Source: Parvularculaceae bacterium
Lineage (GTDB): Bacteria; Pseudomonadota; Alphaproteobacteria; Caulobacterales; Parvularculaceae
Direction of reading: 5' to 3'
Assembly (NCBI GenBank): GCA_021776435.1
Contig: JAJFFW010000055.1
Coordinates: 1-37,799 of the forward strand
DNA length: 37,799 nucleotides
The position numbers were made by a program, and so were the translations under genes. The number at the start of each line of letters is the position of its first letter. The stretch's first letter is position 1. The notes below the pieces were generated by a model. It was not told the DNA's origin. It saw only the letters and a program-made list of their open reading frames with translations, and searched no databases. Positions 31,815 to 37,799 of this stretch are shown in pieces.

Positions 31815-32231
31815 GGGGGCCTCGTTTCTGGTTATCCTCAGATGAAATAGATTTTAGGCGCGGTCGCAGGGCTTCGCCGTGTGACCGTTCTATGTGTCAT
31901 AGGGAAGAAGCCTCAGTATGGGAACATCACTTTATTGCCTGTAACAGGACTTTATAAAAGAAAAAACTGCTCAGAGCAGCCGAAGGAAAGTTCCTTTATA
32001 ACAATCGGGTTTACAGCTTCAATCCTTACGCTGTTGAACATAAGAGCGCATGCTTGCCCCCAACATGATAATTACGTATTGTGAGCTATATCATCTTCTG
32101 GAATGCGATTGCAGGTTTGATCGCGCGTTCGGTTAAATCAAAACTGAGAGAGTCAGTATCGCGTAAGTTGTCTTCAAATATGTGTGCGACGCCAAGGCCT
32201 TAGCTTTTATCTCAAGGGGGAGGAAGGAGCG
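31815..32231. other. 417-bp divergent spacer upstream of the secreted-protein operon
   Basis: The spacer lies between prepilin peptidase (minus) and the operon starting at 32232 (plus). It holds three perfect palindromes (31938-31996, listed separately) and, at its end, the ribosome binding site GGAAGGAGC before ATG 32232. The frame 31881-32084 lacks a ribosome binding site and recognisable features. I could not place a convincing -35/-10 pair. Confidence 0.4.
31938..31996. promoter_or_regulatory. Cluster of three perfect palindromes
   Basis: CCTGT-A-ACAGG (31938-31948), CTGCTC-A-GAGCAG (31967-31979) and AAGGAA-AG-TTCCTT (31983-31996) are exact inverted repeats within 59 bp. The centres are about 30 and 17 bp apart. 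Their location in the upstream region of the secreted-protein operon makes operator sites plausible, but no regulator gene is next to them. Confidence 0.5.
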
Positions 32232-33440
32232 ATGACACACCGTTCAAGGGCGCTATTCTCGATTTTGAAAATAACGACAGTGACTTTTGTCGTTGTGGCT
32301 TTCTCTGTTACCGCAGCATGGGCTGTCTATAGACAACCCGTCGAATTGACGACGGCCAGCGGTGAGGAAATCCCACGCACCAGCATCTCCTTTTCGACCC
32401 CCACCGACGAAAGCGTAACGGTTGAAGAAGACGAAGATGATCCCAACCTGATCTGGCTGGTATTTCCGGGTGAGAGCGCAAATAGCGGAACTCTGACGAT
32501 TGATCGCCCGGAGGGGGCGGTTGAAATCTCGGTGCCCGCCGCGGGTCCCGGAGAAAAGATCGTTGTTGATCTTGATCTTGGCGTGGCGACATTGGCGCCT
32601 GTGGAATCCGGACTTTCTGACGCCGGTGACGCGAGTGACTCAAGTTCTACGCCATTAGGATCGGTAACGGAGGATCCATTTGTTTTTGATCTTGCCGAAT
32701 ATCTCCAGCCGATCGAGATTGGGCCTAAATCAGAAGTGGGAACGGAGAGTGCTGGCAGCAAAGCCCTGAAGGGCGCCGCCGGCGCCGCGTTCGGGCGGAT
32801 GCTGGGCGGCGGCGGAGGGCGGTCGTCGTCGGGCTCGTCCGGCCCGAAAACCAGACGCGATCCGACCCGCAAACAGGATCCGACCAGCCTGGTTGATCCG
32901 GAGTCGGAAACCGGCATCGGCGTCAGGACGAAATGGACCGATGACGGATTGCTTGTCAGCACCAATATCGAAGATTCCGATGATCGCGGCACCTTTCATT
33001 ATGTCTATCTTGTCGATGAGACCGGCCGTCAATTAGCGCCGAAAATGATCGAGACCTACAAGATCTGGCAAAAGCACACCCTCACGGTCAGCTGGACGAG
33101 AAGCGAATATGTCGACGGCGGGCTTGTCAGCCAGACCTCTGGCGGCTGGACCGAGAGCTGGACGAAGGATCTCGGCATCTTCACGCGTCAGAGCCACGGC
33201 GAAGGCGCGCAGGCGCCCGGCATCTGGCAAATGGTCGGCTATGATCGCGCCCATGCCGGGCTGCGCAGAATTGGAACCACATTCGATCTGAGCCCTGAGC
33301 AATTTGCTGAACTCGGAAAAGTATACCTCATCGTTCATCTCACACGACCAAGCCTTGACCCAGTAATCACCGCGCCATTTGCGGTATCGTTTACACCCGA
33401 TGGCGGCGGCGGTGTCGACCTCACCCCATATGCGCCGTGA
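32232..33440 (+). CDS. Secreted protein of unknown function with Gly/Ser-rich linker
   Basis: The 402-aa protein has a signal peptide (MTHRSRALFSILKITTVTFV, probable cleavage after Ala31 in TAAWA). The mature N-terminal part is acidic and beta-rich (SVTVEEDEDDPNLIWLVFPG). A glycine-zipper-like KGAAGAAFGRMLGGGGG and a Ser/Gly linker lie near residues 180-205. The C-terminal domain, about 225-395, contains RTKWTDDGLLVSTNIED, FHYVYLVDETGRQLAP and APGIWQMVGYDRAH, which look like an Ig-like or carbohydrate-binding beta-sandwich. I do not recognise the family. The start is set by GGAAGGAGC just before ATG 32232, rather than the longer frame from 32184. It is the first gene of an operon with the next three. 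Confidence 0.75.
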   Translation: MTHRSRALFSILKITTVTFVVVAFSVTAAWAVYRQPVELTTASGEEIPRTSISFSTPTDESVTVEEDEDDPNLIWLVFPGESANSGTLTIDRPEGAVEISVPAAGPGEKIVVDLDLGVATLAPVESGLSDAGDASDSSSTPLGSVTEDPFVFDLAEYLQPIEIGPKSEVGTESAGSKALKGAAGAAFGRMLGGGGGRSSSGSSGPKTRRDPTRKQDPTSLVDPESETGIGVRTKWTDDGLLVSTNIEDSDDRGTFHYVYLVDETGRQLAPKMIETYKIWQKHTLTVSWTRSEYVDGGLVSQTSGGWTESWTKDLGIFTRQSHGEGAQAPGIWQMVGYDRAHAGLRRIGTTFDLSPEQFAELGKVYLIVHLTRPSLDPVITAPFAVSFTPDGGGGVDLTPYAP

Positions 33441-33486: not shown

Positions 33487-34044
33487 ATGCAGAAAACCAA
33501 CAGAGTCAGCTTTCCTATCTTTGTCGAAGCGCTCGCCATGGTCTGGCGCGCGATGCAAGCAATCGCGATTGCAGCGATCCTGACCGGCATGACGAGCGGA
33601 GCGGCCATCGCGGCGGCGCCGGACGATTTTAAAATCGTGCTTTCAACAAGTCCGCGTGCGCCCAGCGATCCGTTCGGCAGACAGACCGTAGAGATCAAAT
33701 CTGACGGCTCAGTTTGGTTGTCTTCTGTGAAAACATCGCACGGCGATTCACCGGAACGAAAAATCAAAATCAAAAAGGCGGCGGTAGACCGGATCTGGAC
33801 GGCGGTGGAAGAACGCGATTTCTTCAACCTCAAACCGGAATATCGCGATGAGGAGATCAGGGGCGGCGACTTCGCCGCAATCACTGTTTGGGCGAATGGA
33901 AACAAGCACCAAGTCAAAACCGTTAATATCCGCGTCACGGATTTTGATTTCGTGACGATTGCGATCAATGAAGAACTGCCTAAGGATCGGGTGGTTGTCT
34001 ACAACGCTTTATTCATCCTTGAATACACGGCGGTGCAGAGATGA
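33487..34044 (+). CDS. Small secreted protein, unknown function
   Basis: The 185-aa protein has an N-terminal signal (hydrophobic about residues 16-43, ending GAAIAAA). The mature part is a compact alpha/beta domain: DDFKIVLSTSPRAPSDPFGR, TVEIKSDGSVWLSS, KIKKAAVDRIWTAVEERDFF and VKTVNIRVTDFDFVTIAINE. The pattern of a strand pair followed by a helix ending in an x-x-F-F-x-L step resembles small DUF domains that measure 'value per residue', but I cannot name one. GGAG lies eight bases before ATG 33487; the frame is open further upstream (33379), overlapping the previous gene. Its stop overlaps the start of the metallopeptidase gene (ATGA), so they are coupled. Confidence 0.7.
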   Translation: MQKTNRVSFPIFVEALAMVWRAMQAIAIAAILTGMTSGAAIAAAPDDFKIVLSTSPRAPSDPFGRQTVEIKSDGSVWLSSVKTSHGDSPERKIKIKKAAVDRIWTAVEERDFFNLKPEYRDEEIRGGDFAAITVWANGNKHQVKTVNIRVTDFDFVTIAINEELPKDRVVVYNALFILEYTAVQR

Positions 34045-36131
34045 GCCGTGCACACATAAATAAAGCACATCGCGCGATGACTGTTTTTGGCGTGATGTGC
34101 GTCGCGATGGCTTTGCTGGTGTTCTGGCTCACGCCTGGTATTGCGCAGGTCAGCACCAGTCGGACCGGTCCTTGTGAAGTCACCATAACCATCCCGATTG
34201 AGATTTATGGGCCGCGTGGCACAACCCAGGTTGCGAAAGAATGGAAAGAACAGATTGAATCGGTGTGGAACGGACCGACTGAAGAAGCCGCTTTAGCGAT
34301 ATTTGAAGATTCTCAGCTTCGTAAAGACAATCCCGACCTGTTCAAAAAACCAAGCGATATGCGTGATACCATTCGCCGAAAATATAAAGACATGTTCGGT
34401 GAAGGCATGCTCATCAATTGCTGCACGATCAAATTTGTCGCCGATATTATCGTGCGCGCCGAAGACGCCGATCCAACGGAGGGCTATAATCAAGTCAAGG
34501 CGATGCCGGCGTATTACGGCGAGTGGGATACGCTCGGCAGCATTCCGCTGATCGGCCCATATATCGGCGAATATGAAGTGAAATGGTTTCGCTCCTTCGT
34601 CAGGCATTTGCCCGAGTCACCAGACGATCTTCCGGGTGGAGAGTGGGCTAACCAAGCCGGTTATCCGGTTTACGCTCATGAAGTTGGACATCTACTCGGC
34701 ATTGACGATCATTACCATGATGAAGTGGACGAAGATGGTCACACGCATAGCGAAGCCAATGAAGGTCATGAAAATGACCTTATGGGCGGCGATATGCAGG
34801 GTTTCCTTAAAGAGGAACATTTAAGGAAGATTTTGAAATTTCATAACGTGACCTGCAATTGCTGCCCCGTTAATCGAGATGAAGCTATGTACCAGCATTT
34901 TGCCGTAACGCTTCGCGCGGGGAATGATGCGATGGCTGCTAATAATTGCGATGTCTTGAAGCAGTCGCTTGATGATTTGCGTGACCAGAGAGCCAACGCG
35001 CAGTTGGCGCGTATGCCATTCAGGGAGAAATACGATTTTCTCAAACGCCTGGATGAAGAGATCGAACGTATTCGAAAAGCGTGGCTGGAGTGTGATCCAG
35101 ACCCGGTCATCGAAGAAACGACGACCGGCGCTCTTGATGATTATGGACTGTCGACTGACTCAACGGAGTTCTGCACCTATGACGATGGTCTCGCGACGCC
35201 GTTTGGTGGAACGTATATCCCGGGTGGGCTTTATTTTCCGGGCGTAACCCCGGGTACGACGCCGGATGACGGCGACGGTCCGCGCGACACGCCTGGCGAG
35301 ACTCCCGATGCGACCACGCCAGTGCGCCCGGGATTGACGCCTCCGCGGCCCGGCCTGATACCGACGATTACGATTACGCCGATTGATGATGACGGCGACG
35401 ACGAACCGTCGATTCCGGCCAATGAGGGCCTAACACCGGGTTCGACGCCGGATGACGGTGATGACCCACGCGATACGCCGCCGGTCACGGTCCACTTCAA
35501 AGTGAAGAAGACGGTGCTGCAATCTGACGGAACCAGGACGACCACGGCAGAACCACAGCCCGGCCGGCGTCTTAAAATGATCGTGCCGGAGCTGCAAGAC
35601 CCGGTCTTGCCGCTAGCCTACGATGGGGAACCGGCCAAACGGATTAACATGGACCCGCTCGCCCCGTTAGGCACGTATGGCAAAGACACTGACACCGGGG
35701 CGGGCGATGATCCGTTGCAATGCACAACCGACGAGAACGGTGAATGTGATATCGATGAGGTAGAGTTCACTGGTATTATTTTGGCCGAGGGCGGGCGCAT
35801 CGACGTGGACGTCCCTGTTCAAGACGTCAAAGGCGGAGTTATTCCCGATGACGGTTCGGGCGGTGGCGACGTTCCAGAAGGCGGTGAAGTGACTGGCGGC
35901 TTTACAATTGGCGATCAGTCATATCTGCGCTTACGTTGGGATGCAGGTCTCGACCTTGGATATCGCGTCAAACTGGATCTTAAATATGATTGGCATGAAG
36001 ATCTTTGCAAGGACGAACAGCCGGGTCCGTGGATCGGCTCCGACCTCAGTCGTTTTGAAGGCATGGGCCAGAGTGTGCCGCAGAGGACGTTAAAATTCTC
36101 GACGCCTTCTCATGCGTCATCGGGAGGGTGA
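34041..36131 (+). CDS. Secreted metzincin-like metallopeptidase with Pro/Asp-rich repeat region
   Basis: The 696-aa protein has a signal peptide (hydrophobic 13-30, TPGIAQ cleavage near 35). The catalytic domain spans about 45-280 with the zinc motif HEVGHLLGIDDHYHD: His213, Glu214, His217, Gly220, and Asp223 or His224 at the third-ligand place. NDLMGGDM provides a Met-turn candidate. A CNCCPVN cluster and a helical segment (about 280-350) follow. Then comes a low-complexity stretch rich in Thr, Pro, Gly and Asp with two near-identical 16-residue repeats. The C-terminal beta domain contains CTTDENGECDIDEVEF and ends at GG. It is probably exported and cleaves proteins outside the cytoplasm. 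It lies between a small secreted protein and a subtilisin-like protease, 1 nt from the latter. Confidence 0.8.
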   Translation: MSRAHINKAHRAMTVFGVMCVAMALLVFWLTPGIAQVSTSRTGPCEVTITIPIEIYGPRGTTQVAKEWKEQIESVWNGPTEEAALAIFEDSQLRKDNPDLFKKPSDMRDTIRRKYKDMFGEGMLINCCTIKFVADIIVRAEDADPTEGYNQVKAMPAYYGEWDTLGSIPLIGPYIGEYEVKWFRSFVRHLPESPDDLPGGEWANQAGYPVYAHEVGHLLGIDDHYHDEVDEDGHTHSEANEGHENDLMGGDMQGFLKEEHLRKILKFHNVTCNCCPVNRDEAMYQHFAVTLRAGNDAMAANNCDVLKQSLDDLRDQRANAQLARMPFREKYDFLKRLDEEIERIRKAWLECDPDPVIEETTTGALDDYGLSTDSTEFCTYDDGLATPFGGTYIPGGLYFPGVTPGTTPDDGDGPRDTPGETPDATTPVRPGLTPPRPGLIPTITITPIDDDGDDEPSIPANEGLTPGSTPDDGDDPRDTPPVTVHFKVKKTVLQSDGTRTTTAEPQPGRRLKMIVPELQDPVLPLAYDGEPAKRINMDPLAPLGTYGKDTDTGAGDDPLQCTTDENGECDIDEVEFTGIILAEGGRIDVDVPVQDVKGGVIPDDGSGGGDVPEGGEVTGGFTIGDQSYLRLRWDAGLDLGYRVKLDLKYDWHEDLCKDEQPGPWIGSDLSRFEGMGQSVPQRTLKFSTPSHASSGG
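35247..35480 (+). repeat. Duplicated 48-bp coding repeat in the metallopeptidase linker
   Basis: The codons at 35247-35294 and 35433-35480 encode TPGTTPDDGDGPRDTP and TPGSTPDDGDDPRDTP, identical at 14 of 16 residues and offset by exactly 62 codons. The bases between are also Pro/Thr/Asp rich. DGD-containing repeats of this kind may bind calcium or act as a flexible spacer. Confidence 0.8.
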
Positions 36132-36132
36132 G

Positions 36133-37590
36133 ATGATGAAAAGCGGTATGAAAAACAATCTATCCTCTCGTGCGATCAAGCTTGCGGCAATCGTGTTGTT
36201 CGCGGCGGGGGCTAGTTCTTCGGGGATTGCAAAAGCGCAGACCGCTCCGAATGACCCTTATTTCAAGGCGAAAGGAACTTGGGGGCAATCTTATCCTGAC
36301 CAGTGGGCGCTCAAGCGTGTCGGATTCGATGAAAGCGCCAACAGTGCCTGGACCCTGGTCGGCAAACGCCCATCACCTGTCATTGTCGCCGTCATCGATA
36401 CGGGTCTTGATTGGAACCACGCGGATATCGCGTGGGATCATATCTGGAAAAATTCTGGAGAAACCCCAGATAATGGAAAAGATGATGACAGTAACGGGTT
36501 CGTCGATGATGTTATTGGTTGGGACTTTTATGCGAACGGAAACAAGCCCTGGGATCATGATGGACACGGGACATTCGTAACCGGCATCATTGCTGCGGAC
36601 ACCAATAACAAAATAGGCATGGCGGGAATCAACCCGTACGCTAAAATTATGGTGCTGAAAGCGCTTAACAATTTTGGCCATTCGCGTGCGTCTTACCTTG
36701 CTCAGGCGCTTGTCTACGCGGCCGATAATGGAGCGCGTATCGTCAATTTGAGCGTTGGTGGAAAGGGACTGACACCTGTCGAGCGTGATGCGGTGACTTA
36801 TGCAGTATCAAAGGGCGTTTTCATCATTGTTGCTGCGGGCAATGAGGCGGTGAGGGCTGAAGAGTTTGGTTTGGCAGGCCTTGAGGATGTCCTGACAGTC
36901 GCAACCACGGGACTGGATGACAATAGAGAGGTTTTTTCAAACTGGGGGCAAAGCGTGGATCTTGCTGCGCCGGGAATTGATGTCCTTAGTTTACGGGCGC
37001 GGCGTACGGATTTTATGGCGGGTAATCCGGATATAGAGTATGAGCCGGGTGCAGCTTATGTGGGATCGGACAAGAGATATTATCGCTCGAGCGGAACATC
37101 GTTTTCCGCCCCAATCGTCACAGGAATCGCGTCACTGCTCTTGTCTAAAGATCCATCTCTGACCAATGAAGAGCTTCGGAGGATTCTGAAACAATCTGCA
37201 CGCGATATTGAAACGCCAGGAATTGATCAGTTTACGGGTTACGGTCTTGTCGATGCGCGCGCCGCCCTAAAGGCGGATCGGAAATTCTTTGTTTCCGCAT
37301 CCATCTCAGATGTTCAGATTGTTCAGGATGGCGCTGGTCAGGCTGTTGAAGTGTTGGGCACGGCGAATGCCGACCAATTTAACAAGGCAGAGTTATTTCT
37401 CGGATCTGGTGAGGACCCGACGTCTTGGAAGCCCGTAGCGACCCCCTTAACACAATCCATGAGTGACGGTGTGTTGGGACGTATCTCAGCGGCGGAGTTT
37501 GCTGGCGCCCCGGTATGGGTGGTGCGCCTGGTGACGACGCATTCGAATGGTAAAACGCGTGAGGCCCGCTATCAAATCGACCTTGACTAG
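36133..37590 (+). CDS. Secreted subtilisin-like (S8) serine protease
   Basis: The 485-aa protein has a signal peptide (IKLAAIVLFAAGASSSGIAK, cleaved near KAQ). The S8 catalytic triad is Asp89 (VAVIDTGLDW), His145 (DHDGHGTFVTGIIAAD) and Ser323 (SSGTSFSAPIVTGIASLLL). The oxyanion Asn lies in IIVAAGNEA. A propeptide is short or absent: the mature-like region WALKRVGFD starts soon after the signal, as in subtilases of the thermitase type. The last 100 residues form a beta domain (VSASISDVQIVQDGAGQAVE). GGGAGG lies just upstream of ATG 36133 (or 36136), 1 nt after the metallopeptidase stop. The TAG stop at 37588-37590 is followed, in the same frame, by an Rhs-core sequence. Confidence 0.93.
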   Translation: MMKSGMKNNLSSRAIKLAAIVLFAAGASSSGIAKAQTAPNDPYFKAKGTWGQSYPDQWALKRVGFDESANSAWTLVGKRPSPVIVAVIDTGLDWNHADIAWDHIWKNSGETPDNGKDDDSNGFVDDVIGWDFYANGNKPWDHDGHGTFVTGIIAADTNNKIGMAGINPYAKIMVLKALNNFGHSRASYLAQALVYAADNGARIVNLSVGGKGLTPVERDAVTYAVSKGVFIIVAAGNEAVRAEEFGLAGLEDVLTVATTGLDDNREVFSNWGQSVDLAAPGIDVLSLRARRTDFMAGNPDIEYEPGAAYVGSDKRYYRSSGTSFSAPIVTGIASLLLSKDPSLTNEELRRILKQSARDIETPGIDQFTGYGLVDARAALKADRKFFVSASISDVQIVQDGAGQAVEVLGTANADQFNKAELFLGSGEDPTSWKPVATPLTQSMSDGVLGRISAAEFAGAPVWVVRLVTTHSNGKTREARYQIDLD

Positions 37591-37799
37591 GGACAAAGCC
37601 CTAGCAGGCCGCTGACCACGCGTCTGGCCAATGGCGGGCCGAACGCCTATTACCATAGCGATCACCTCACCAGCCGCGTCGCCGAAACCCGGACCGACGG
37701 GACCGTGAATTGGCGTGAGCATTACACCCCATTTGGCGAGCGTCTGATCGGCGAGAAAAACGGCAACGTCCAAGGCTATACCAATCATGTGCGCGACGC
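37591..37799 (+). pseudogene. Rhs repeat-associated core fragment without a start, runs off the window
   Basis: From about 37612 the frame reads LTTRLANGGPNAYYHSDHL, then SRVAETRTDGTVNWREHYTP, then FGERLIGEKNGNVQGYTNHV, open to the window edge. This is the late Rhs core (YYHxDHLxS, DxxGxVxWxxxYxPFGE) that normally precedes the RYYDP motif and a variable C-terminal toxin. There is no ATG in frame after the peptidase stop. Only seven codons separate that TAG from the recognisable Rhs sequence. GC is about 61% by hand count against roughly 45-50% in two sampled stretches of the protease gene. It could be an orphan Rhs tip joined here by recombination, or part of a larger Rhs gene whose 5' part was replaced. 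Confidence 0.8.

Follow-up and report, generated by a model that had tools for sequence, protein, structure and literature searches.

The window analysed here, the whole stretch of 37,799 bases, is an entire contig (G000:C93) of a host genome of 2.96 Mb in 142 contigs. Its last complete gene encodes a subtilisin-like protease, behind which a piece of Rhs core sequence runs into the contig end. The features at this end of the window are as follows.

36133..37590, plus strand: subtilisin-like protease (S8), putatively secreted, complete, with a native TAG end (Pfam S8, motifs and six close homologues)
37587..37604, no strand: perfect inverted repeat CTAGGG-ACAAAG-CCCTAG, with a 6-bp stem and a 6-base loop, spanning the protease stop codon
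37591..37608, no strand: junction of six codons outside every alignment (the earliest Rhs alignment starts at 37609)
37609..37799, plus strand: 5'-truncated Rhs core fragment (YYHSDHL ... NHVRD), open and cut by the contig end (tblastn to the Rhs cores of relatives)

The protease frame begins at an ATG at 36133 (36112 in the ORF listing) and stops at the TAG at 37588-37590. Pfam recognises an S8 domain with an E value of 1.4e-49, the DTG, HGT and GTS motifs are all found, and our reading of the N-terminus suggests that the enzyme is secreted. A search at an E limit of 1e-60 in 61 genomes (the host and relatives) returned only the window's own gene, while 385 genomes of the class searched at 1e-35 gave four matches, namely the window's own, G218 (59% identity), G486 (49%) and G393 (43%), the last limited to protease residues 52-286. 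Plasmid records held no match to the protease (E limit 1e-60) or to the Rhs fragment (E limit 1e-5). A first scan of a genome contig collection with the protease alone as query gave no match; from an alignment-based scan of the collection the best 80 loci of at least 519 confirmed relatives were kept, the closest among these 80 being L061 (58%), L062 (53%), L063 (48%) and L064 (45%). With a criterion of at least 45% identity over about 430 residues or more, the close homologues are six (G218, G486 and L061 to L064), and G393, L065 (36%) and L066 (44% over residues 40-379) fall outside. The protease ends no more than about two residues from the window's TAG in all six (45-59% identity), as judged from the alignment and from match or frame ends, and therefore the TAG is evidently the protease's own, native end. 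The frames of L066, L067 and L071 extend into other C-terminal parts.

This result bears on two alternatives in the original prediction, a single protease-Rhs fusion interrupted by the TAG, or a TAG that is read through. The relatives give no sign of either. None of the six close homologues continues beyond the TAG column into Rhs in the stretches examined, tblastn found no Rhs match in the G218, G486 and G393 loci, and among the best 80 loci of the alignment-based scan Rhs occurs in one (L135), 3.5 kb from a 34% homologue. Because the homologues end at the TAG and Rhs is absent behind the close ones, the Rhs piece is, by this comparison, particular to the locus and not a domain of the protease. 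Subtilisin-family proteases do figure among the processing domains of Rhs-type polymorphic toxins (PMC3482391, in excerpt), and the two sequences share a frame, a coincidence expected by chance one time in three that means little. On the evidence of the homologues we reject the interrupted fusion, which, with or without read-through, we regard as very improbable; read-through of a native stop is itself unsupported. A scheme in which an Rhs toxin tip would be made by read-through or reinitiation at the TAG and delivered by a secreted subtilase is scarcely credible. Among the literature matches listed for Rhs together with subtilisin or serine protease, none had a protease-Rhs fusion as its subject, judged by title or the opening of the abstract, and those listed for Rhs read-through or orphan translation were papers on orphan Rhs genes and unrelated ones.

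After the TAG, the protease frame reads on for 69 codons without a stop to the contig end; the minus strand is open across the Rhs piece as well. Against the loci of relatives the fragment reaches a best tblastn E value of 1.7e-13, and it aligns with all 11 of the relatives' Rhs frames at 41-53% identity and without a frameshift, a homology that by these alignments is beyond chance. Pfam and NCBIfam assign no family to the 69 residues by themselves. The homology to the 11 frames begins 18-54 bases past the TAG, with alignment starts at 37609 (two of the 11), 37612 (one), 37621 (five), 37636 (two) and 37645 (one), so that eight lie within 37609-37621. Inspection by eye showed no in-frame ATG, GTG or TTG ahead of YYHSDHL (37648), the first GTG lying inside TVNWREH, and two in-frame CTG codons, at 37612 and 37624, that precede YYHSDHL. 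The prediction that Rhs sequence starts about seven codons after the TAG, in the same frame and without a start codon of its own, is borne out by these alignment starts and by the lack of a usual start.

A jump to about 61% G+C at the junction had also been taken to suggest a recombination boundary. The last 209 bases are indeed 61.2% G+C. Of 1870 windows lying to the left, 2.4% have a value as high or higher, but relative to the 209 bases before them the rise is 4.3 points, and a step as large separates 49% of neighbouring 209-base windows, so the jump is not distinctive. G+C at third codon positions does differ, being 0.71 in the Rhs piece, 0.52 in the protease and 0.65 in an rhs gene on another contig of the host (C135). 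The inverted repeat over the stop codon occurs once in the window and nowhere else in the genome, and the reversed pattern at seven genome places. It may be due to chance: of 3776 stretches of 40 bases taken from the window, 173 (4.6%) contain a stem of equal size, and with a stem of so frequent a kind and one genomic place we draw no conclusion about a recombination site.

Of 149 genomes searched with the 69-residue fragment, 20 gave a match, the window's own counted in, with 30 matches listed. Beyond the window there are 29, of which 13 lie in frames of at least 1354 codons, 15 in frames of 287-856 codons and one in a 35-codon frame (on G082:C12). Nineteen places were read, and the flanking sequence was inspected for 11 partial copies, namely 10 of the 15 intermediate ones and one short match in L041; those of G077 (two), G120 (two) and G032:C73 were left out. 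Counted from where the match begins, all 10 intermediate frames extend for 254-302 codons (one, L040, has a run of N upstream), and in eight of them (not L029 and L038) a same-strand ORF of 85-161 amino acids starts between -36 and +88 bases from the frame end. As a control, 8588 positions were drawn at random from these loci, and 991 of them (11.5%) had such an ORF start; so did 17 of 62 ends of any frame of at least 280 codons, orphans included. The order in G082 is main rhs, small ORF, orphan, small ORF, and around some orphans, for example those of L029, L030, L036 and L038, no main rhs was matched within the region covered. The second L041 entry is an 88-codon remnant. When nine partial frames were searched with Pfam, RHS or YD-shell was matched in six, above the curated cut-off in one, and nothing in three; no named toxin domain was found by Pfam in the nine, and the term toxin tip therefore rests on architecture. 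From these frames and their neighbours, the relatives evidently hold full-length rhs genes plus orphan tips with short core remnants.

The host genome itself contains other Rhs pieces. On contig C135 an rhs gene is represented by its 5' part, the first 857 codons, cut at the contig end; its N-terminus resembles a signal peptide in our reading. These 857 codons are all that the own genome shows of a full-length rhs that would share the core, as no contig of the assembly was found to hold the core part. Contig C113 starts within Rhs, in a frame that stops at base 286, and on C49 (L055, 8681-8857, minus strand) there is a decayed piece of Rhs core, about 50-65 residues long and interrupted by two stops, with unrelated genes on either side. 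The second half of one Rhs protein from a relative, used as a query against the own genome, matched only C113, C49 and the window's contig, so the continuations of the window's fragment and of the C135 gene were not found in the assembly. A protein search with the fragment added two weak matches, on C118 and C85 (E 0.095 and 0.8), which were not confirmed as Rhs, giving no match to the relatives' Rhs frames at E 0.01. Separately, the ORFs that follow the Rhs stop on C113 (L054, 1-4684) resemble, by eye, retropepsin-like, Fic-type and TIR-type proteins.

The decayed piece on C49 and the stop-ended piece on C113, together with the short copies in relatives (the 35-codon frame of G082 and the 88-codon remnant of L041), raise the possibility that the window's fragment is likewise a short, decayed and functionless Rhs remnant that lacks both tip and immunity gene. 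Against this, its 69 visible codons are free of stops and of frameshifts relative to the relatives, an argument weakened by the shortness of the piece, and 28 of the 29 matches in relatives lie in long frames, an argument weakened by selection, since the copies were found via a match to an intact-looking core and the sample favours intact copies. On balance we consider a remnant unlikely, at a level still to be reckoned with.

The position of the contig break deserves attention. Core copies were compared within the genomes of six relatives, and in three of them copies above 90% identity were found. In G082 two copies share 91% identity along 348 bases, beginning near fragment residue 37; G019 has copies at 97% identity along 150 bases, beginning near residue 64, and at 93% along 269 bases, beginning near residue 33; and the copies in G077 reach 93% along 484 bases that span the fragment's region. 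Likeness is lower in G065 (73-89%) and G045 (74-79%), and G002 gave no match. The window's contig breaks off at fragment residue 69, and near-identical core copies, which would break a short-read assembly, are a possible cause of the break here. The same circumstance could have produced a chimeric contig end, in which the assembler joined the last ~200 bases to the protease contig: the junction lies only about 209 bases from the end, Rhs cores are repeated within relatives' genomes, and C135 and C113 also break inside Rhs. However, no second DNA copy of the Rhs end sequence that might mislead an assembler exists among the host's 142 contigs, the last 26 bases have no further copy there with up to three mismatches allowed, and the protein search with the fragment likewise yielded no confirmed second copy; as copies left unassembled would be invisible, this carries little weight. 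We judge such a chimera improbable.

What is present, then, is an open Rhs core, truncated at its 5' end and lacking a usual start, behind a complete protease, in a host with other Rhs pieces; it is a real Rhs fragment, most likely of an already known kind, cut by the contig end, and not a protease-Rhs fusion. Our preferred reading, held with slightly more belief than doubt, is that an orphan (displaced) Rhs tip begins here, with the fragment as its 5' end and an unrelated protease gene in front. For this reading speak the 28 of 29 outside matches in frames of at least 287 codons, the small ORF behind eight of the 10 orphans, the near-identical core copies within single genomes of relatives and the C135 rhs gene in the host; against it, no full-length rhs lies upstream within the window, the enterobacterial arrangement being described as tandem, the host also has the C49 and C113 pieces, and near-identical core copies were seen in just three of the six genomes compared. 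The earlier suggestion of an orphan toxin tip thus stands insofar as relatives carry short-core orphan tips with a small ORF, but the fragment's own tip or immunity gene would lie past the contig end and, the window being the whole contig, is beyond view.

The best-described counterpart of such an orphan tip is the orphan rhs-CT/rhsI module of Salmonella LT2 (STM0292). Like it, the window's piece has a 5'-truncated core and no usual start, and as there, the orphan cores of relatives resemble those of full-length rhs genes; unlike it, the piece has an unrelated protease, and no main rhs, in front of it, and any tip or immunity gene would fall beyond the contig end (PMC3967940, in excerpt). In Salmonella, orphan rhs-CT genes usually have no translation start, and one gained expression via recombination with the main gene over the shared core (PMC3967940, in excerpt). 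A Salmonella orphan is also reported to be expressed at a low level from a CTG start codon (PMC7043789, in excerpt); the two in-frame CTG codons of the window would be candidate starts. A similar case is that of orphan cdiA-CT/cdiI modules, detached toxin tips mostly without start codons that have been proposed as a reserve of toxin/immunity diversity and for which expression of an orphan immunity gene was shown in comparable CDI systems; they differ from the present piece in belonging to CdiA, not Rhs, and in being placed after the main gene (PMC3150448, in excerpt).

By analogy, the frame would continue beyond the contig end through the remaining core into a variable toxin tip followed by an immunity gene. 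In its present form the orphan piece would yield little protein or none. It would act as a reserve: recombination via the shared core with a full-length rhs could transfer the orphan's tip to the main gene, and protection could come from the immunity gene by itself. Provided that a tip follows, such a reserve role would be the most likely one here. If the reading is true, the locus adds a further orphan Rhs tip, with no main gene in sight, to a group of bacteria in which such tips recur. Its main use is as a warning, since repeated Rhs cores can break assemblies and a contig ending in Rhs should not be taken for a gene fusion.

Two genes upstream of the subtilase may be mentioned. Directly upstream, 34041-36131 encodes a protein with a zinc-protease-like motif (HEVGHLLGIDDH), to which the N-terminal extension of the G218 subtilase shows a weak match (23% over 179 aa, E 5e-5) that, having been run without a low-complexity filter, perhaps reflects composition only. 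The C-terminal part of the protein encoded at 32184-33440 is 28% identical over 179 aa (E 2e-11) to a gene in a Scalindua MAG (L061), which lies directly behind the second of two similar subtilases, and this gene is perhaps a recurring neighbour of the subtilase.
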